Below are positions 8,912-57,387 of a stretch of DNA of 64,000 nt, piece by piece; within the stretch, counting starts at the first letter, position 1; each line of letters begins with the position of its first letter. Both the position numbers and the translations under genes were made by a program. The stretch is from Nonlabens ulvanivorans (GTDB taxonomy: Bacteria > Bacteroidota > Bacteroidia > Flavobacteriales > Flavobacteriaceae), in NCBI RefSeq assembly GCF_000732625.1, contig NZ_JPJI01000032.1, positions 186,001 to 250,000 on the forward strand. Direction: 5' to 3'. The notes below the pieces were generated by a model. The model was not told the origin of the DNA and did no database searches. It saw only the letters and a program-made list of their open reading frames with translations.

Positions 8912-11641
8912 ATGAAAAATAATTTACTTTTCTTTTTAGCGGTTATAGGATTCGCTTTCGCGAAAGCGCAGGTAACCACAAACCCTTCCACACCTACACA
9001 AACCGATCAGGTTACATTAATATTTGATTCTACTGGTACAGCTTTAGAAAATACTACAGGCACACTGTATGCCTACACAGGTGTAACGATTAACGGAAAT
9101 AGATGGCAAAACATCATTGTGCCCACATTTAATGATAATAATGGCGCACCTCAATTTGTAAATACAGGTGGAAACATTTACCAATTAACACTTGGATCTG
9201 ATATAGAATCATTTTATAATGTTACTGCTGGTGATGTCGTTAGTGAAATATGCCTAGTTGTAAGAAACGCAGCAGCAAATGCCCAAACAAGTCCAGATAT
9301 TTTTCTACCTATTTTTCAACCAGGCCTAAATGCATTAATTACCTCACCTGCAGATGGAGATATTTTTACCTTAAATCAAACCATCAATATATCAGGTGAC
9401 GCTTCTCAAAATGCAACACTTGAATTAAAGGTCAATAATACATCAATAGGCACTGCGGCTAGTTCTATGAACATCACATCACCGTATACTTTTAATACGA
9501 CAGGTGGACACACAATAGAATTAACTGCAGATAATGGAGCACAACAAATCACAGATGCTGTGAACGTTTTTGTTCCTGCGGCAACGCAAACGCAAACAAG
9601 ACCTGCTGGGCTTAAAAATGGAGTCAATGAGAATGCAGATGGTAGTGTCACTTTTTTACTCGCTGCTCCAGGAAAAACGGATGCTGCCTTAATAGGTGAT
9701 TTTACAAACTGGAACCTAGACACTAACTTTCAAATGTTTAAAGATGGTGACTACTTCTGGGTAACCGTTCCTAGTTCAAACTTTACTGCTGGACAGACTT
9801 TTCAATATCAATATATAGTTGATTATACTTTCAAAGTTGCAGATCCATTTTCTGGATTAATATTAGATCCAGATAGTGATCAATATATCAAGCCTGGTAA
9901 TTACCCTAATTTACCAACATATCCTACAGGACTTACAACTGGTGATGTATCATTATATACTTATCAAGCGACACCTTATAATTGGACGGTTAATAATTTT
10001 CAGAAACCTAATAAGGAAAACCTAGTTATTTATGAACTATTAGTACGTGACTTTTCAGAGAACGATAGTTTTCAAGAAGTAATAAATCGTATTGACTATT
10101 TAGAAACATTAGGAATCAATACGCTACAATTAATGCCAGTAAATGAGTTTGAAGGAACGGATAGTTGGGGTTATAATCCTAAGTTTCATGGAGCATTAGA
10201 TAAAGCATACGGTACCCCAGAAAAATTTAAAGAGTTAGTAGATTTATGTCATTCTAGAGGAATTGCTGTTGTAATAGATGTAGTATATAATCATGCCTTT
10301 TCGCAAAGTCCATTGTGTCAACTTTGGTGGGATGAAAATAACTTTAGACCAGCTGCAAACAACCCTTATTTAAATTCTTCTCCTACGCACGACTTTAATG
10401 TTGGTTATGATTTCAATCATGAGAGCCAGTGGACCAGAGACTATGTTAAACAGACATTACAATACTGGATCGATGAGTATCGTATCGACGGTTTTAGGTT
10501 TGATCTTTCGAAAGGATTTACTCAAAACTTCACACTAGGTAACATTAGCGCATGGAGTGCATATGATCAATCTAGAGTAGATATTCTTAACGATTATAAG
10601 AACACCATTTGGAATGCAAATAGCAATGATATATACATGATTCTTGAACATTTAGGCGATAACTCTGAAGAGACAGCCCTAGCAAATGCAGGCTTTATGC
10701 TATGGGGCAAGATGACTGATGAGTTTAATCAAAATTCTATGGGTTATTCTAGTAACAATGATGTTTTTAGATCGTACTATCTAGCTAGAGGATGGAATGA
10801 CCAGCACCTAGTTGCTTATGCAGAAAGTCATGATGAGCAACGTTTAATGTATAAGAACTTAAATTTTGGAAACGCCGCAAATTCTTCGCATAACGTACGT
10901 AGTTTACCTGTAGCATTAGATAGACAAGAGGCTATTGCTGCGATATTATACAGCATACCTGGCCCTAAAATGCTTTGGCAGTTTGGCGAGTTAGGCTATG
11001 AGATAGATATTGATCAGAACGGTCGTACAGGTCGCAAACCGATACCATGGACACTGAATTATGATACTGACCAAGACCGCTTGGACTTATATAATGTTAC
11101 TGCTACTATGATAGGTTTTAAAACTAAATATCCAGATACGTGGAACACTACAAACAACAACCTAGATGTGTCTGGAGTTACAAAACGTATTAATTTAAAT
11201 GGACCTGTCTTTGACGTCGTTGTACTGGCAAATTATGGCATTACAGCCCAAAATGTTAATCCAAATTTTAGTCAAAACGGAACTTGGTATGAATACTTCA
11301 GTAATACAACTGTAAATATTACTAATACCACTGCAATGATTAATCTACAACCTGGTGAATATCGAGTTTACTCTACTCAGCAATTACAAGATCCATTAAG
11401 TAATGAAGACAGCTCCAACTTAACGACAGGTATAAAGTTGTATCCTAATCCTGCTCAAAACTCTTTCAGATTATCTGAAGACATTCAAAGCATGAAAATT
11501 TACAACATGAAAGGACAGCAAGTACTTGATTATGAAAAGAGCTTACCCAATTACTCTATCGAGAGCCTTACAAGTGGCGTTTACATCATCACAGTTCAAA
11601 CTGTAAAAGGAAATCACCAAATAAAATTGATAAAAGAGTAG
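8912..11641 (+). CDS. secreted GH13 alpha-amylase with T9SS sorting domain
   Basis: A 909-residue extracellular starch-degrading enzyme. The signal peptide is residues 1-20 (ends FAFAKAQ, encoded by a copy of the genome palindrome). N-terminal beta-sandwich domains (about 20-340) include a CBM48/isoamylase-N-like module (AALIGDFTNW near 260). The GH13 catalytic barrel (about 365-800) has region I VVIDVVYNHAF, nucleophile D531 in DGFRFDLSKGF, acid/base E579 in MILEHLGD and transition-state D641 in AESHDEQR. A type IX secretion sorting domain ends the protein (LYPNPAQNSFRL ... GVYIITVQT ... KLIKE). It feeds the SusCDE-like uptake system. A pullulanase-like specificity is possible. Confidence 0.93.
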   Translation: MKNNLLFFLAVIGFAFAKAQVTTNPSTPTQTDQVTLIFDSTGTALENTTGTLYAYTGVTINGNRWQNIIVPTFNDNNGAPQFVNTGGNIYQLTLGSDIESFYNVTAGDVVSEICLVVRNAAANAQTSPDIFLPIFQPGLNALITSPADGDIFTLNQTINISGDASQNATLELKVNNTSIGTAASSMNITSPYTFNTTGGHTIELTADNGAQQITDAVNVFVPAATQTQTRPAGLKNGVNENADGSVTFLLAAPGKTDAALIGDFTNWNLDTNFQMFKDGDYFWVTVPSSNFTAGQTFQYQYIVDYTFKVADPFSGLILDPDSDQYIKPGNYPNLPTYPTGLTTGDVSLYTYQATPYNWTVNNFQKPNKENLVIYELLVRDFSENDSFQEVINRIDYLETLGINTLQLMPVNEFEGTDSWGYNPKFHGALDKAYGTPEKFKELVDLCHSRGIAVVIDVVYNHAFSQSPLCQLWWDENNFRPAANNPYLNSSPTHDFNVGYDFNHESQWTRDYVKQTLQYWIDEYRIDGFRFDLSKGFTQNFTLGNISAWSAYDQSRVDILNDYKNTIWNANSNDIYMILEHLGDNSEETALANAGFMLWGKMTDEFNQNSMGYSSNNDVFRSYYLARGWNDQHLVAYAESHDEQRLMYKNLNFGNAANSSHNVRSLPVALDRQEAIAAILYSIPGPKMLWQFGELGYEIDIDQNGRTGRKPIPWTLNYDTDQDRLDLYNVTATMIGFKTKYPDTWNTTNNNLDVSGVTKRINLNGPVFDVVVLANYGITAQNVNPNFSQNGTWYEYFSNTTVNITNTTAMINLQPGEYRVYSTQQLQDPLSNEDSSNLTTGIKLYPNPAQNSFRLSEDIQSMKIYNMKGQQVLDYEKSLPNYSIESLTSGVYIITVQTVKGNHQIKLIKE
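8953..8968. repeat. iterated palindrome, copy 2, inside the amylase signal peptide
   Basis: Exact 16-mer CGCTTTCGCGAAAGCG, read here in the frame giving AFAKA of the signal peptide. Confidence 0.95.
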
Positions 11642-50175: not shown

Positions 50176-51186
50176 ATGGCACGTAAAAATCAAACCTTAG
50201 GAGAATTTATTATTGAAAACCAATCTGAATTTCAATATTCTAGTGGCGAACTATCTAGACTCATCAACTCTATAAGATTAGCTGCTAAAATGGTTAATCA
50301 TGAGGTTAACAAAGCTGGACTTGTAGATATTACCGGTAGCGCTGGTGAGATTAATACTCAAGGTGAAGATCAACAAAAATTAGATGTTCTTGCAAATGAC
50401 ACATTTATAAGAACACTTACTAATCGCGAGATCGTATGTGGTATAGCTAGTGAAGAAAATGATGACTTTATTACCATAGAAGGTCATAAAGAGAATCATA
50501 GTAACAAGTATGTAGTTTTAATGGATCCTTTAGACGGTAGTTCAAATATAGATGTCAATGTCTCTGTAGGAACTATTTTCTCTATATATAGACGTGTAAC
50601 ACCTGTCGGTACTCCAGTACAGTTAGAAGATTTTTTACAGCCTGGTAATTTACAAGTCGCTGCGGGATATATTGTTTACGGTACCTCTACAATGCTAGTT
50701 TACACAACTGGCCATGGTGTGAATGGATTTACATTAAATCCTGCATTAGGGACTTATTATCTATCACATCCTAATATGAAATTTTCTGAAGATGGAAATA
50801 TTTATAGCGTTAATGAAGGTAATTACAATAATTTCCCACAAGGTGTCAAGGATTATATTAAATACTGTCAACAAGATGAAGATGACAGACCTTACACTAG
50901 TCGTTATATAGGTAGTTTAGTATCTGATATTCATAGAAATATGATAAAAGGTGGGATTTACATGTATCCACAAAGTGCTAAATCGCCAAATGGTAAATTG
51001 CGTCTTTTATATGAATGCAACCCAATGGCTTTTATTGCCGAACAAGCTGGTGGTACAGCCAGTGATGGTCATACACGTATCATGGATTTAAAACCGACAG
51101 AGCTTCACCAAAGAGTACCTTTCTTCTGTGGAAGTAAAAACATGGTTGCCAAACTAGAGGAATTCATTCAAAAGCACGATAAGTAA
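50176..51186 (+). CDS. fbp: class I fructose-1,6-bisphosphatase
   Basis: A 336-residue gluconeogenic phosphatase. The metal-binding core [26 protein letters not shown] is intact, with [28 protein letters not shown] and [19 protein letters not shown] of the sugar-phosphate site. The length is normal. It is followed 34 bp later by the four-gene signalling operon; no terminator is seen between them, so read-through is possible. Confidence 0.96.
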
Positions 51187-51220
51187 TATTTTTCTAGTAT
51201 TTTTACTTCTCAAATGAGAA

Positions 51221-51580
51221 ATGAAAATGAGTAAAATATCTAAAACCCAAAATGCTGCAACTGAAGGTGTAGATAGCAACTCAAAAATAGAGGCCATAAA
51301 GAACCTCATTTTTGGAGAAAACATCCAACAGTATAATACGGAGTTTGATGAACTAAAAGCGGACTTGCTGAAGAAAAAGCAAGAATTACAAAGCTTTATA
51401 GACGATACACGTGATGAGCTTAGCAAAAGCATTGACAGTCTTTCTACAGATTTAAACATTCGTATTACTGATTTAGAGAATAAGTTGGAAGATAGACTAG
51501 ACACTATAGAAGATGAAAAAACTAGTAGAGACATGCTAGGCGAAGCTCTTATAGAGTTAGGTAAAAAAATCAAAGCTTAA
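51221..51580 (+). CDS. coiled-coil protein of the GTPase operon
   Basis: A 119-residue soluble protein. Residues about 40-105 are a continuous heptad-like coiled coil (FDELKADLLKKKQELQSFIDDTRDELSKSIDSL...NKLEDRLDTIEDEK). It begins MKMSKISKTQ; an ATG two codons on is an alternative. The segment IKNLIFGENIQQYNTEFDELKADLL recalls the start of the cytosolic part of some OmpA-family proteins in other phyla (memory, unverified). It is the first gene of a run with gaps of 15, 1 and -1 bp. Confidence 0.75.
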   Translation: MKMSKISKTQNAATEGVDSNSKIEAIKNLIFGENIQQYNTEFDELKADLLKKKQELQSFIDDTRDELSKSIDSLSTDLNIRITDLENKLEDRLDTIEDEKTSRDMLGEALIELGKKIKA

Positions 51581-51595
51581 TAACACAATACCGCC

Positions 51596-52423
51596 ATGAC
51601 AGAAGATGAAAAGCTGGCGTTATTGAAGACGATCTTACTTACGGATGATAGAGAATACGCAGAAAGTATTACTCACAAAATCAATGTTCTAGAAGAAATT
51701 TTAAGAGAACGCCATAGGCTATCTGAAAAAGTTTCTCCTATCATAAAGGAACAGTTAGACGATTTCACAAAAAACATTCCTCAAAACTTAGGGCCAGCAA
51801 TTACTGAGTCATTGAAAATTCAAATTGAAAATTCAAAAGATGAAGTTGTTGAAGCGCTCTATCCTATTTTAGGTAAGATGATAAAAAAGTACATCTCGCA
51901 AGAGATAAAAGTACTTTCTGAGCAAGTGAATAAAACGGCCAAAGACACATTTTCAATGCAAGGCATTAAACGCAAAATGAAATCAATTTTTACTGGAGTA
52001 AGTGAAAACGAAATCATAATTAGCGATTTAGGAAATGCTAAAGTAGAGCAAGTGTTTATTATCGAGAAAGGCTCTGGTATATTAATAGGTAGTTTTCACT
52101 TAAAGGAAACAGTAGATGAGGACATGATTAGTGGCATGTTAACGGCAATTAAAGGCTTTGTAGAAGATGCTTTCAAGCAGTCCAACCATGATTTACAGTC
52201 TATCGAGTACGATTTATACGAAATACACTTACATAATTTTCATAAGTATTATATTGCAACTGCCGTAAGTGGTACATTTACAGAGACTCTAGAAAATGAA
52301 CTTGAAAACTTTAACCTTGAAGTCTCACAAGAAATCAATAAAAAGAATCTATTAGATTCAAGAGAAGCACTAGAAGAATTACTATTAACCAGGTATAGTG
52401 CTCTTAAATTCAGTAACCAATAA
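51596..52423 (+). CDS. protein of unknown function with C-terminal regulatory-like domain
   Basis: A 275-residue soluble protein. The N-terminal part is helical (ERHRLSEKVSPIIKEQLDDFTKNIPQNLGPAITESLK ... ALYPILGKMIKKYISQEIK); from about 150 it is an alpha/beta domain (KVEQVFIIEKGSGILIGSF ... DEDMISGMLTAIKGFVEDAFKQ ... IEYDLYEIHLHNFHKYYIATAVSG). This combination resembles, from memory, the non-OmpA portion of certain proteobacterial and cyanobacterial OmpA-family proteins; here it stands alone with no membrane segment. The C-terminal fold could be roadblock/longin-like, which would suit partnership with the GTPase next door. Confidence 0.65.
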   Translation: MTEDEKLALLKTILLTDDREYAESITHKINVLEEILRERHRLSEKVSPIIKEQLDDFTKNIPQNLGPAITESLKIQIENSKDEVVEALYPILGKMIKKYISQEIKVLSEQVNKTAKDTFSMQGIKRKMKSIFTGVSENEIIISDLGNAKVEQVFIIEKGSGILIGSFHLKETVDEDMISGMLTAIKGFVEDAFKQSNHDLQSIEYDLYEIHLHNFHKYYIATAVSGTFTETLENELENFNLEVSQEINKKNLLDSREALEELLLTRYSALKFSNQ

Positions 52424-52424
52424 T

Positions 52425-52904
52425 ATGATATCAAAAAAAATCGTCATCGTAGGACATTTTGGAGTTGGGAAAACTTCACTTATAAGGCGTTTTGTAGAAG
52501 ATGTATTCTCTGCAGACTACAAAGTAACTATAGGCGTTCATATTCTTAAGAAAACTGTTCATGTTAACGATAAAGAAGTTAACTTAATTCTATGGGACAC
52601 AGAAGGTACAGATGACATTGAAGAAATTAGAAAAGCGTATTTACTGGGAACACACGGATTCATATTTGTGTGTGATGTGACGCGCCCTGTAACATATCAA
52701 AATATTGAATCACAAACTCAATATCTAAAGGATAACTTCAATAAAGTACCTATTTTAAGTATTGGTAACAAATCTGACCTTTTACCTAAAGGAAGTATAT
52801 CCGAGAAAAAGGAGGAACTTGAGTTTCTAGATATGCTAGTAAGCGCAAAAGAAGGAAACAACGTTCAGCGCTTATTTGAAAAAATTGCTAAAATTTTATC
52901 CTAA
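52425..52904 (+). CDS. Ras-like small GTPase
   Basis: A 159-residue small GTPase with all five G motifs: P-loop GHFGVGKT (10-17), switch I T35 in YKVTIGV, DTEG (58-61), NKSD (115-118) and SAK (140-142). The catalytic Gln after DxxG in Ras/Rab is Thr62, so intrinsic hydrolysis may be slow or need a partner. There is no lipidation motif. The start is the ATG 1 bp after the preceding stop; a GTG 27 bp upstream lies inside that gene. It is closest in look to Rab/Rup-type bacterial Ras-like GTPases, and it overlaps the kinase-like gene by 1 bp. Confidence 0.9.
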   Translation: MISKKIVIVGHFGVGKTSLIRRFVEDVFSADYKVTIGVHILKKTVHVNDKEVNLILWDTEGTDDIEEIRKAYLLGTHGFIFVCDVTRPVTYQNIESQTQYLKDNFNKVPILSIGNKSDLLPKGSISEKKEELEFLDMLVSAKEGNNVQRLFEKIAKILS

Positions 52905-54433
52905 TGGCGATGCATGAACTACAACGTGACTACAGCACAAAAGATTTGCAGTTTATCTCTATTGATAAACAAGGGACCATCCTCACAACTGACCAGCAAC
53001 TTTTTGAGCTAAAGAAAGACTCTTCGATAAAAAGTTTTCATCCATTTTTTGAAGGAATAGATACTTATTTCTTAGAAAAAAGCGATCATATCAAACTAGA
53101 GTGTGTTCATCTAAATGATCGCGTTTTTGATATAGATTTTATAAAAAATGATGATGATACCGCTGTCATCATTTTTAGAGAAGGAACTGATTTCTATAAT
53201 AGAGTACAACTAATTGCTCAAAAACGCAATGAGTCTATTATATTTCAGGAAACACTGGAACTTAAAAACCAAATATTAAAAGAACAAGAAGAGTTTAAAA
53301 ACAGGTTCATTGGCAACTTTTCTCACGAACTGCGCAATCCACTAACTTTGGTAAGTTCATTTTCATCAATGCTGCTTAAGACAGAGCTTAACTTAGATCA
53401 AGAAATGCTAGTAGGAGCTATAAAAGATCAAAGTGACAAGTTAAGAGACATCCTAAATGACATTATTGATTTATCCATACTAAAAAACAGCTCTTTATCT
53501 CTAGAAAGCGAACCTTTTTCCTTAAGGAAACTTCTTAAAAATGTTCATTTAAACTATTCTACAACTTCTACCACAAAGGATCTTAGTATCAATCTAAAAA
53601 TAGATGAATCTGTCCCTAAGACTATTATTGGTGACAAGAGACGTTTTGAACAAATCATTACTAACTTCTTAGACAATGCATTAAGGCATAACAAAGGAGA
53701 TAGTATTGAAATTAACATTAAAGAAAATCAAAGAAGAGCAAATAAAGTTAGTCTTAGAATAGAGGTCATTAACAATGACGGTTTAATACCCGATTTCTTA
53801 GGTGATCAAGAAATCGAGACGTACACTAATCTTGATAATGGGGACATAGAAAAAACAACCAGCTTAAGCTTCTCAATTGCAAGAGAACTAGCGCAATTAA
53901 TGGACGGCGAGATTCTCATAAAACCACTAGAAACAGGTGGAACCTTGCAGGTTGCAAATATCAAATTAGTATTCCCTATACACGATAAAGAAATTATAGA
54001 GGAAACTGAAGAAACTACTAAAAACAGTAAAATACATCTTACAGATAAAGTAAGAACTATCATTGCCGAAGATAATAGCGTCACACAAATGACAGCTTTA
54101 AAGATATTGGTAAGTACAGGTAACTTTGACAATCGTGTTTTTACTGACCCTAAAGATTTACTAGAAGCAGTTGATAAAGATGATTACGACCTTATACTAA
54201 TGTCCTCATCAATATCACAAGTCGACGCCTTAGAACTGATTAGTCTGATAAAAGAATTTGCAAATGATCATAACAAGAAAATACCGATCATTGCTGTAAC
54301 AACAAAAACATCTGCCCCAGAATTAGTAGAATACCGCAAGGCTGGATTTAAAGATGTAGTAAAAAAGCCTTATACAGATGATGAGTTGTTAAACACCATT
54401 TATAAAAGGCTTAATCTTAAAAAGTTTAAGTAA
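52904..54433 (+). CDS. hybrid histidine-kinase-like protein with degenerate ATP-binding and receiver residues
   Basis: A 509-residue cytosolic protein. It has a PAS-like N-terminus (about 10-110), a coiled linker, a DHp domain with an intact H-box (H141 in FSHELRNPLT), an HATPase domain and a receiver-like domain (about 383-505). The N-box NFLDNALRH (N254, N258) is present, but the G1 box DxGxG reads NDGLI and the G2 box GLGL reads SLSF. In the receiver, the acidic pair E389/D390, the Thr in IIAVTT and the Lys in VVKKPY remain, but the phospho-acceptor Asp is Ser434. It may be a signalling scaffold rather than a phosphorelay enzyme. It is translationally coupled to the GTPase gene. Confidence 0.85.
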   Translation: MAMHELQRDYSTKDLQFISIDKQGTILTTDQQLFELKKDSSIKSFHPFFEGIDTYFLEKSDHIKLECVHLNDRVFDIDFIKNDDDTAVIIFREGTDFYNRVQLIAQKRNESIIFQETLELKNQILKEQEEFKNRFIGNFSHELRNPLTLVSSFSSMLLKTELNLDQEMLVGAIKDQSDKLRDILNDIIDLSILKNSSLSLESEPFSLRKLLKNVHLNYSTTSTTKDLSINLKIDESVPKTIIGDKRRFEQIITNFLDNALRHNKGDSIEINIKENQRRANKVSLRIEVINNDGLIPDFLGDQEIETYTNLDNGDIEKTTSLSFSIARELAQLMDGEILIKPLETGGTLQVANIKLVFPIHDKEIIEETEETTKNSKIHLTDKVRTIIAEDNSVTQMTALKILVSTGNFDNRVFTDPKDLLEAVDKDDYDLILMSSSISQVDALELISLIKEFANDHNKKIPIIAVTTKTSAPELVEYRKAGFKDVVKKPYTDDELLNTIYKRLNLKKFK

Positions 54434-54440
54434 AGAAATA

Positions 54441-54872
54441 TTACTTACGATTCTTATTCAATAAGTATCTGTAATCTTCTAGATTTAAATGACCAGAGAA
54501 AATCTCGACTGATCTATCTACTAGATATTTAGCATCTTCATCATTGTAACCGATAGCGGTAGCATATCTTCTCAACAGTTTATGCTCGTTTTCATCCATC
54601 GCATGATCAGCAAAAACTATTTTAAATAAATCGTGCAACCACTGGATGCGTTCCTCACTGTCTGTTGGAGGCGTTACTGGATATGCAGATGGGTTTTTAA
54701 GTATCGCCGCATAATCCGAATCAGATATATCCAGTTTAGACTTTAAACGCTCTAAAACTACCGTTTCTTGAGCGCTCATATTTTCATGCGACTGCGCAAT
54801 ACTTACTATAGTAGCAAAATGACTTTTATTTCTGGCACTTTCACCAGATTCAAATAAACTTGAGAATGACAT
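54441..54872 (-). CDS. TerB-like helical protein
   Basis: A 143-residue soluble protein with the TerB/DjlA-like helical fold (HENMSAQETVVLERLKSKLDISDSDYAAIL ... LHDLFKIVFADHAMDENEHKLLRRYATAIGYNDEDAKYLV, with Asp/Glu residues of the metal-binding type). A role in tellurite resistance cannot be inferred from one gene. It converges on the kinase-like gene, 7 bp apart, and has its own promoter. Confidence 0.8.
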   Translation of the reverse strand: MSFSSLFESGESARNKSHFATIVSIAQSHENMSAQETVVLERLKSKLDISDSDYAAILKNPSAYPVTPPTDSEERIQWLHDLFKIVFADHAMDENEHKLLRRYATAIGYNDEDAKYLVDRSVEIFSGHLNLEDYRYLLNKNRK

Positions 54873-56088: not shown

Positions 56089-56766
56089 ATGAAAAAGACA
56101 CTAATTATCGCAGTTTTTGCGACCGTAACCTTAATAGCTTGTAAAGACAAGGAAAATAAAGAACTTGAAGAAATGGTAGAAGACACTACAGAACAAGTTG
56201 AAGAAACTACAGAAGACGCCGAAGACGCTATTCAAGATACAATGACTTATACTAGAGAGAATGTTTCCCAATTAGCTAACGACTTTGAAAGTAATGTAGA
56301 GGTTAATGATGATAAAATTGTCTCGATAAAAGGATATGACTCTTATACTGTTTTAAGAACCAATATCTCAGAATTATCAGCGACCACAGAAGAGAATATC
56401 AATACCAAATCAGAAAGCTTAAGAACTAGCTTTAATTCATTTAAGTCTACTATTCCAGCATACTTGCGCATTGATGATGTACAAGATGCGATTGAAGATG
56501 TAGAGAAAGAAATTGCTGAATTTGAAGAAGAACGTATGGGAGAAAAAGCTTCTACTAAAAACAATAAGGAAAACATGGAAGAGATTCAGGAAGCTTTTGA
56601 CGATTTAGAAAAAGAAATTATCCAAGCTCGTAAAAAATATGTTGATAATAAAGAAGATGCAATGGAGGAATATATGGAAGAAATCAATAGCAATAGAAAA
56701 CAAAGTACAACAGAAAAGTACCTAGACGCTACTGAAGAATATAATGAAGAGATGAAGGATAAATAA
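56089..56766 (+). CDS. acidic coiled-coil lipoprotein
   Basis: A 225-residue lipoprotein with lipobox LIAC (Cys18). The mature part is strongly acidic and helical, with an EETTEDAEDAIQDT segment near the start and long Glu/Lys coiled coil from about 120 to the end (DVQDAIEDVEKEIAEFEEERMG). No enzyme motif is seen. It is probably a periplasmic or surface spacer or stress lipoprotein. A second small lipoprotein gene follows behind a terminator. Confidence 0.8.
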   Translation: MKKTLIIAVFATVTLIACKDKENKELEEMVEDTTEQVEETTEDAEDAIQDTMTYTRENVSQLANDFESNVEVNDDKIVSIKGYDSYTVLRTNISELSATTEENINTKSESLRTSFNSFKSTIPAYLRIDDVQDAIEDVEKEIAEFEEERMGEKASTKNNKENMEEIQEAFDDLEKEIIQARKKYVDNKEDAMEEYMEEINSNRKQSTTEKYLDATEEYNEEMKDK

Positions 56767-56792
56767 TCTTAACCTTTTTATTAAAATTAAAT

Positions 56793-56824
56793 AAGTATCT
56801 TGATTCTATCAGGATACTTTTTTT
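56793..56824 (+). terminator. terminator of the acidic lipoprotein gene
   Basis: A 12-bp stem, AAGTATCTTGAT with ATCAGGATACTT (56793-56804 with 56808-56819, one G-T pair), runs into a T-run. Confidence 0.82.
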
Positions 56825-56868
56825 ATGTCTACAATATAATCATCTTTGTAATTATACGTTTTAAAACT

Positions 56869-57387
56869 ATGCGTTACCTATTCATATTACTGCTCCTTAT
56901 TTCCTGTGGTGAGACTCCAGAAACAGCACCTGTAGTCGAGCAAAGCACAGAAATCTCTTTTGACCCAGCGACATCACGCATGGTTTTAAGAGGTGAAGCC
57001 CAGCAATTATCAACTAAATGGGATGCATACCAGACCTTTACAACAGAATTAGAAAACTTTGACCACTCCACGGCGGCGGCACAACGTCTGGCTACCTCAA
57101 TCGATGATATGATTGTGAGTATACCAGATGAAATTGCAAGTCAACCAGTTAAGTCACGATTAAAAGTTCTAGAAACTAGAATAAAATCTTACCATGCTCT
57201 ACTAACTCATAATGCTTACAGCACTAAGGATCAACAAAAACGCTATGATCAGGTAATAATAGCTCTAGACGAATTTAAAATCCAGATGATGGAAGTATTT
57301 GCTCAGCAAAAATCTAAAGAGAATCTGTTAAAGAATCTAGAAGCAATGGAATTAGAGCTAGAAGAAAAAGACAGTATCAATCCCTAA
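56869..57387 (+). CDS. small helical lipoprotein
   Basis: A 172-residue lipoprotein; start MRYLFILLLLISCGE gives a short signal peptide with lipidated Cys13. The in-frame ATG at 56800 lies in the preceding terminator and is rejected. The mature part is helical (LEARIKSYHALL-like and MELELEEKDS coil) and of unknown function. It resembles the upstream lipoprotein in size class and helical content, but not clearly in sequence. Confidence 0.75.
   Translation: MRYLFILLLLISCGETPETAPVVEQSTEISFDPATSRMVLRGEAQQLSTKWDAYQTFTTELENFDHSTAAAQRLATSIDDMIVSIPDEIASQPVKSRLKVLETRIKSYHALLTHNAYSTKDQQKRYDQVIIALDEFKIQMMEVFAQQKSKENLLKNLEAMELELEEKDSINP

Follow-up and report, generated by a model that had tools for sequence, protein, structure and literature searches.

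A four-gene operon of Nonlabens ulvanivorans as a probable soluble variant of the Group 1 Rup GTPase system, with a predicted longin-type domain and an output protein that is a pseudokinase by motif

A 64,000-nucleotide stretch of the 3.2 Mb genome of Nonlabens ulvanivorans (assembly GCF_000732625.1, contig NZ_JPJI01000032.1, positions 186,001 to 250,000; hereafter the window, with positions counted from its first letter) contains four tightly packed genes, which encode a coiled-coil-like protein, a protein with a predicted longin-type domain, a Rab/Ras-like small GTPase and a kinase-like output protein. The proteins of the window are designated P0001–P0004 and their families P1–P4. The open reading frames (ORFs), their lengths in amino acids (aa) and the parts discussed below are as follows.

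51221..51580, + strand: P0001, 119 aa, a coiled-coil-like cytoplasmic protein with a proline-free helical part, paired with the longin-type P0002 (ORF, hydrophobic periodicity, neighbourhood).
51596..52423, + strand: P0002, 275 aa, N-terminal helices (residues 1 to ~133) and a C-terminal longin-type domain as predicted (about residues 149–274), without OmpA or transmembrane part (ORF, Pfam, hydropathy, AlphaFold2, structure comparison, weak sequence support).
52040..52417, + strand: the predicted longin-type domain of P0002 (residues 149–274), in which helix 175–194 is best conserved (model, structure comparison, conservation).
52425..52904, + strand: P0003, 159 aa, a Rab/Ras-like small GTPase (Rup type) with Thr62 at the position of the catalytic Gln (motifs, Pfam, conservation).
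52904..54433, + strand: P0004, 509 aa, PAS-HisKA-HATPase_c-receiver, a pseudokinase by motif (ORF, Pfam, motif counts).
52904..53308, + strand: residues 1–135 of P0004, predicted to fold as PAS domain plus exit helix, with the invariant Gln106 (alignment, predicted structure).
53219..53221, + strand: codon of Gln106 of P0004, the sole invariant column among 88 aligned fourth-gene N-termini, aligned in the loci L100 and L101 as well.

Re-derivation of the ORFs gave four genes on the + strand with intergenic gaps of 15, 1 and −1 bases, in agreement with a preliminary description of the locus. Its statement that no OmpA or membrane domain is present was also borne out: OmpA was not among the Pfam families listed for P0001–P0004 (for P0003, 25 of 28 were listed), and the highest 19-residue hydropathy mean of the four proteins was 1.40, with no apparent membrane-spanning stretch. 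Residues 35–115 of P0001 have a hydrophobic period of 3.58 (p 0.007), and it is by this periodicity that P0001 is called coiled-coil-like. Profile searches for P2 and P3 found one copy of the operon in the genome of the window.

The loci compared within the Flavobacteriaceae were the best 80 of 127 P0002 relatives and are thus biased to close relatives; the closest one fetched was that of N. ulvanivorans JCM 19298 (100 % over P0002). The order P1-P2-P3-P4 was kept in all 80 loci, with gaps ranging from 6 to 101, −17 to 95 and −32 to 18 bases, and P1 adjoined P2 in every one, so that the preliminary proposal withstands the refuting condition set for it, a neighbourhood not conserved in relatives. 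The fructose-1,6-bisphosphatase gene (fbp; 50176–51186, + strand) lies 34 bases upstream of the operon on the same strand, may be co-transcribed with it, and was found in 63 of the 80 loci. Because fbp was not found at the other 17 (at one of them, L067, the upstream DNA was too short to tell), the four-gene order is not merely inherited surroundings. To survey occurrence more broadly, P0002 and P0003 profiles were run against 296 Bacteroidota genomes and 299 Flavobacteriaceae genomes, with the P0003 cut-off in the phylum search set at E ≤ 1e-18 so that other Ras-like proteins stay out. Across the phylum, P2 and P3 were found in the identical 13 of 296 genomes, belonging to 8 families (hypergeometric chance 6e-23, uncorrected for shared ancestry), even where the two genes are not adjacent (L105, L106, L109). 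In the Flavobacteriaceae draw, P2 occurred in 65 genomes and P3 in 62, all of which also carry P2. Genomes with P2 only include G355, which has a fragment with internal stops (its locus, L142, holds remnants of P1 and P2 only), and G372, where the match covers 50 residues at a contig edge.

Outside the Flavobacteriaceae, P1 adjoined P2 at 13 of 14 places (the exception being L113), and the GTPase gene was followed by that of a fourth-family protein at all 14 (the one in L108 is cut by the end of the stretch). The latter pairing persists where P1-P2 sit elsewhere or divergently. In the locus L143 (2251–5484, genome G366), two tandem GTPase-PAS pairs stand behind a single P1-P2 pair, the first PAS protein being an open frame of only 220 aa. 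Similarly, L138, L139 and L140 each encode, downstream of the GTPase, a pair of proteins with a PAS-Gln-like N-terminus, one kinase-like and one of ~310 aa; no Pfam domain was found in the L138 member of the latter that was scanned. From these gene orders, we infer that the system consists of two units, P1-P2 and P3-P4.

The GTPase itself carries the G1 motif GHFGVGKT, Thr35 in switch I, WDTEG as G3, NKSD as G4 and SAK as G5, and it matches Pfam Ras at 4.2e-35; all G motifs are thus in place, with Thr62 instead of the catalytic Gln, as was noticed at the outset. This Gln is absent from all 81 GTPases of the family, position 62 being H in 28, T in 26, K in 11, Y in 8, N in 7 and S in 1, and equally from the 11 GTPases outside the family. 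Position 60, which is Ala in Ras and Rab, is Glu in 81/81 family members and in 4/11 outside. The closest solved relatives of P0003 are Rabs, namely YPT6 (1e-25), Rab23 and Sec4, among the best 60 of 872 matches.

The P2 proteins of the 80 family loci measure 263–284 aa. Their relatives in Bacteroidota outside the family are open frames of 598–738 aa, and those in L100 and L101 have 763 and 1023 aa. OmpA was recognised in all 11 relatives outside the family that were scanned (L100, L102, L104–L107, L109–L113), with L111 just below the Pfam cut-off; three OmpA-bearing relatives also carry a BON domain. The short Flavobacteriaceae protein has no room for OmpA or BON. The impression that the second protein recalls the cytosolic part of OmpA-family proteins was therefore well founded.

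A neighbourhood of this kind has been described from sequence. In the consulted parts of Wuichet & Sogaard-Andersen 2014 (PMC4316618), the Group 1 Rup neighbourhood comprises a coiled-coil protein, a protein with an unknown domain, a Ras-like GTPase lacking Gln and an output protein. According to the same parts, a membrane helix and OmpA “often” come after the unknown domain, and typical outputs are histidine kinases and diguanylate cyclase/phosphodiesterases; the system is compared with the conservon, and the authors speculate that some unknown GTPase-activating protein (GAP) contributes the absent Gln in trans, a light in which they find the invariant Gln of the output protein noteworthy. 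The operon of the window has all four gene kinds, including the Gln-less GTPase and an N-terminal invariant Gln in the output protein. Thus, it fits this four-gene neighbourhood and appears to be a soluble member of the described kind, so that a reading of the operon as matching no known system is not supported. The P0002 domain is here equated with the domain of that paper by neighbourhood and architecture, and Gln106 is a putative equivalent of the Gln in its logo. The operon differs in that P0002 is without OmpA or membrane part, that relatives also use sigma-54 activators and an adenylate/guanylate cyclase as outputs, that a predicted fold is now given for the unknown domain, and that the kinase of Nonlabens, judged by its motifs, is inactive. 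The consulted parts of the literature mention neither the longin-type assignment nor the outputs of sigma-54 and cyclase type, the P1-P2/P3-P4 pairing or the Nonlabens pseudokinase, which are hence added here. No experimental Rup study and no paper naming a longin in Rup operons was found in the open-licence literature, which is not proof of absence.

The actinobacterial conservon/AGPS (CvnA-D; PMC13343842, in the part consulted) likewise unites in one operon the genes for a histidine-kinase-like protein, a small GTPase, a protein of Roadblock/longin type and one further small protein. By contrast, its Roadblock protein is of the MglB type, its kinase is a sensor kinase, its GTPase belongs to the MglA family (a placement taken from the consulted part of PMC4316618), and its fourth component differs. 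The set of conservon genes is not complete here, in that no Roadblock family (Robl_LC7, PF03259) had a match in the genome of the window. In addition, neither a Roadblock family nor the CvnC-type family, which we take to be DUF742, was among those listed for P0001–P0004.

The C-terminal domain of P0002 is not recognised by Pfam. Its fold was predicted with AlphaFold2 from 92 sequences, and the model was compared with known structures by Foldseek and a second structural aligner, which reports Z scores. The modelled elements are strands 149–157 and 163–168, helix 175–194, strands 202–205, 208–214 and 218–225, and helices 230–249 and 256–268, which corresponds to longin topology. The best matches were 9ddt_B (Z 13.8, 114 residues aligned, root-mean-square deviation (rmsd) 2.3), Sec22b 1ifq_A (Z 12.8, 118 aligned, rmsd 2.8) and 5ldd_E (Z 12.4, 130 aligned, rmsd 3.2). 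All of the best 50 rows by Z (10.9–13.8) are what we take to be longin folds: subunits of AP complexes and COPI, SNARE longins, Mon1-Ccz1, TRAPP, Fuzzy/Inturned and a Lokiarchaeal longin. MglB is absent from these 50 rows, which does not by itself exclude a Roadblock. Helix 175–194 is conserved at 0.82, whereas the two C-terminal helices reach 0.49 and 0.48; its stronger conservation would be expected if it makes contacts. The domain is thus predicted to belong to the longin/Roadblock superfamily, and it is more likely a longin. Since longins match it best, the pair of P0002 and the GTPase recalls Mon1-Ccz1 or TRAPP with their Rabs. A bacterial occurrence of the class is not new as such: Table 1 of PMC4917890, in the part consulted, has “Longin/Roadblock” as a single class that occurs in Bacteria, with a 2014 longin/GAF review among its references, and this counts against novelty.

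The operon also differs from MglA/MglB, with which it shares a small GTPase and a partner of the longin/Roadblock superfamily. MglA has Thr at the position of the conserved G3 Asp (PMC3000849), whereas P0003 and its family keep this Asp58 in 81/81 cases; the closest solved relatives of P0003 are Rabs, and no gene for a Robl_LC7 partner was found in the genome of the window. The suggestion of a soluble, GTPase-centred module, probably for signalling and distinct from MglAB, is therefore retained. Eukaryotic and Asgard longin-Rab modules (Mon1-Ccz1/Ypt7, TRAPP/Ypt1; for Asgard longins, the consulted part of PMC10933270) likewise join a Rab-like GTPase with a partner of longin fold, which in the present case is predicted. 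In contrast to them, the system of the window is bacterial and operon-encoded with a PAS output, and its GTPase binding and exchange are putative.

Residues 1–135 of P0004 are predicted to form a PAS domain and a long exit helix (predicted local distance difference test (pLDDT) 85.5). The best Z scores of this model were 10.8 for photoactive yellow protein and 10.6 for ThkA; Foldseek gave nothing below 0.001, with PAS, dynein and Ragulator chains mixed. Gln106 lies in the exit helix and, being invariant among the 88 N-termini, is a candidate to stand in for the Gln that the GTPase lacks. Gln16 was rejected as a key residue: it is invariant in 81/81 Flavobacteriaceae rows but is Glu in L100 and L102–L104. 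The output behind the PAS unit varies. HisKA-HATPase-receiver is found in 75 of the 80 family loci, and the receiver is lacking in the remaining 5. Outside the family, the unit is followed by a kinase alone (L107, L110–L113), by kinase-receiver-Hpt (L100) or by PAS-sigma-54 activator-HTH (recognised by Pfam in L102 and L104, and in L103 solely from the aligned N-terminus), and in L101, on a Mesorhizobium plasmid, the output protein is an adenylate/guanylate cyclase (9429–10499).

In the window, Pfam recognises HisKA, HATPase_c and Response_reg in P0004. The protein keeps H141 and N254 and has lost D290, G292, G294 and G320 of the G1/G2 boxes as well as D434, the phospho-acceptor Asp of the receiver, which is now Ser434. 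The Nonlabens group comprises nine rows (the window and L006–L013; L008 is labelled Flavobacteria bacterium BBFL7 and was placed here by 94 % P0002 identity). The six kinase residues tested are intact in none of the nine, versus 72/72 elsewhere; Asp290, Gly294 and the receiver Asp434 are each kept in 0/9, versus 72/72, 72/72 and 67/67 (5 being without a receiver). His141 is retained in 8/9 and Gln106 in 9/9. The “degenerate hybrid kinase” of the preliminary description is thus correct for the window but does not extend to the system, whose members outside Nonlabens keep these residues.

These counts bear on an alternative view of the operon as a conventional phosphorelay, with the GTPase in an accessory role as regulator of a hybrid kinase and with a Nonlabens copy that is simply in decay. 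The intact kinase residues of all 72 non-Nonlabens relatives, and the Asp in every receiver among them, would fit this view, as would the relatively faster evolution of the DHp and catalytic regions in Nonlabens, with ratios of nonsynonymous substitution (dN) of 1.50 and 2.74 against 0.76–1.03 and 1.49–2.15 in three other genera; dN ratios and the closest pairs were relied on, since synonymous substitution (dS) was near saturation in most pairs. It is nevertheless unlikely. Elsewhere the product of the fourth gene is a sigma-54 activator, a receiver-less kinase or an adenylate/guanylate cyclase, so that phosphotransfer is not the common denominator. Moreover, Nonlabens P0004 is full length in the window and in L006–L013 and keeps Gln106 throughout, and its dN/dS is low: 0.003–0.046 over four regions for the window versus L006, the highest finite value among the pairs listed being 0.165, in the N-terminal region of L009-L011. 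The gene is thus under purifying selection and not decaying. Judged by its motifs, Nonlabens P0004 is a pseudokinase, yet a conserved one.

Taken as a whole, the operon probably represents the Group 1 Rup GTPase system in the soluble form seen in Flavobacteriaceae, and its action may be pictured as follows. P0001 and P0002 would form one subcomplex that serves P0003 as a platform and sets its nucleotide state, P0002 promoting exchange or activation, by analogy with the longin/Roadblock platforms in TRAPP, Mon1-Ccz1 and MglB. Loaded P0003 would dock on P0004 at its PAS domain and exit helix, where Gln106 may complete the active site of the GTPase in trans, P0004 acting as effector or GAP; docking and hydrolysis would thereby be coupled to the output domain behind PAS. 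Since P2 relatives outside the family carry OmpA, the envelope would be the source of the signal there, whereas in the Flavobacteriaceae the OmpA part is gone and the platform would be cytosolic. With a pseudokinase as its output protein, Nonlabens probably relays the signal through binding or scaffolding controlled by the GTPase, without phosphotransfer. It is also tempting to speculate that bacteria have a true longin that is operon-paired with a Rab-like GTPase, as a free-standing counterpart of the modules of Mon1-Ccz1 or TRAPP with Rabs, whose discussion otherwise centres on Asgard archaea and eukaryotes; that an ancestral link ran from the cell wall, by way of OmpA, to swappable outputs, with PAS giving the Gln in trans; and that Nonlabens has made of it a phosphorylation-free GTPase switch. 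This extended reading is possible, but it is put forward tentatively.

Several observations weigh against the proposed interpretation. As to the fold of P0002, confidence in the model is medium (mean pLDDT 71.4, predicted template modelling score 0.43), and a short helix (137–146) precedes its first strand, which would also suit a Roadblock topology. The best Foldseek E-value was 2.2e-4, with Rag/Ragulator and other Roadblock-containing chains interspersed from rank 4. The domain could accordingly be a divergent, MglB-type Roadblock and the operon an MglAB-like GTPase/GAP pair plus extras instead of a longin/Rab module. A profile-profile match between the domain and aligned Roadblock sequences (probability 85, pairwise E 5.9e-6) speaks for this alternative, together with the helix just mentioned and the Foldseek matches, which include dynein Roadblock chains and MglB 6izw_C at rank 47 (E 6.4e-3). 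The presumed longin folds that fill the best 50 Z rows, and the lack of a Robl_LC7 match in the genome, speak against it. So do the two helices after the last strand, by which longin topology differs from that of Roadblock (PMC10933270). It is therefore regarded as somewhat unlikely.

At the level of sequence, support for a longin is weak. Among 46 members of the longin region, weak Pfam matches were obtained to Fuz_longin_1 in 4, Intu_longin_1 in 3 (best 0.0087, below cut-offs) and Sybindin in 1, among 25 of 27 families listed; no longin family passes the Pfam cut-off in these 46, P0002 of the window matches none, and single members match unrelated families with better E-values (Pox_D5, 1.8e-4). 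As a control, 88 PAS-region members gave no longin and no PAS family among the families listed (25 of 38), and 4 of them matched one unrelated family, so that repeated weak matches are not rare. Because unrelated families match single members too, some of them better, the weak matches were rejected as stand-alone proof of a longin. When ten longin-region proteins, eight of them already in the earlier set, were scanned singly, one longin match was found, at 0.13. A profile of the region searched against PDB sequences had TRAPP Bet5 as its best match at a weak E of 0.25, followed by serine racemase at 0.47; a second profile gave matches mainly in the N-terminal helices (RIG-I and others), which were taken as chance, and Bet5 at 0.54.

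The unit structure adds a further reservation. Of the 14 places outside the family, only 7 have P2 and P3 side by side on the same strand, the two being divergent at 4 and apart at 3, and the P2-only genome G467 (L141, 5294–6566) has P1-P2, with a divergent P2, in the absence of GTPase or output protein; P1-P2 can thus have a GTPase-independent role. Together with the common core of Longin, Roadblock and PAS domains (PMC3521125, in the part consulted), this locus would suit a reading in which the P0002 domain is a small-molecule sensor of the PAS superfamily without GTPase contact, clustered with P3 by co-regulation only. Such a sensor is distinctly unlikely, given that P2 and P3 share the same 13 of 296 genomes, adjacent or not, and that one and the same aligner placed the P4 domain with PAS and the P2 domain with longins.

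For the output protein, the N-termini of fourth-gene products outside the family are only 7–17 % identical to that of the window, and a first profile of the P4 N-terminus did not detect them at a significant level (E 0.12 at best, for L100). Their homology and the alignment of their Gln rest on MAFFT alignments, the N-terminus modelled being that of the window. Invariant residues apart, the N-terminal region is fast-evolving in each of the four genera that were compared, with dN ratios of 2.06–2.96. As Gln106 sits in a PAS exit helix, its conservation could instead reflect a part in transmitting the signal.

Three further elements were observed around the operon. A perfect inverted repeat, TTCTCA AA TGAGAA (51207–51220), directly precedes the start codon of P0001 and is a possible operator or hairpin. 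A gene for a TerB-like protein (PF05099, 2.1e-10; 54441–54872, − strand) is convergent with the operon and has a relative in 61 of the 80 loci. At 56089–57387 (+ strand) lies an adjacent gene pair of 225 and about 172–195 aa with lipoprotein-like products.

If the regular partner of the GTPase is indeed a longin, a Rab-longin partnership exists in bacteria, which bears on the origin of the membrane-traffic switches of eukaryotes. The invariant Gln makes the old speculation of a catalytic residue supplied in trans directly testable. For this purpose the Nonlabens operon is a clean test case, with soluble parts, one copy found and kinase motifs removed by evolution, and owing to the loss of these motifs the coupling between GTPase and effector can be studied apart from phosphotransfer.

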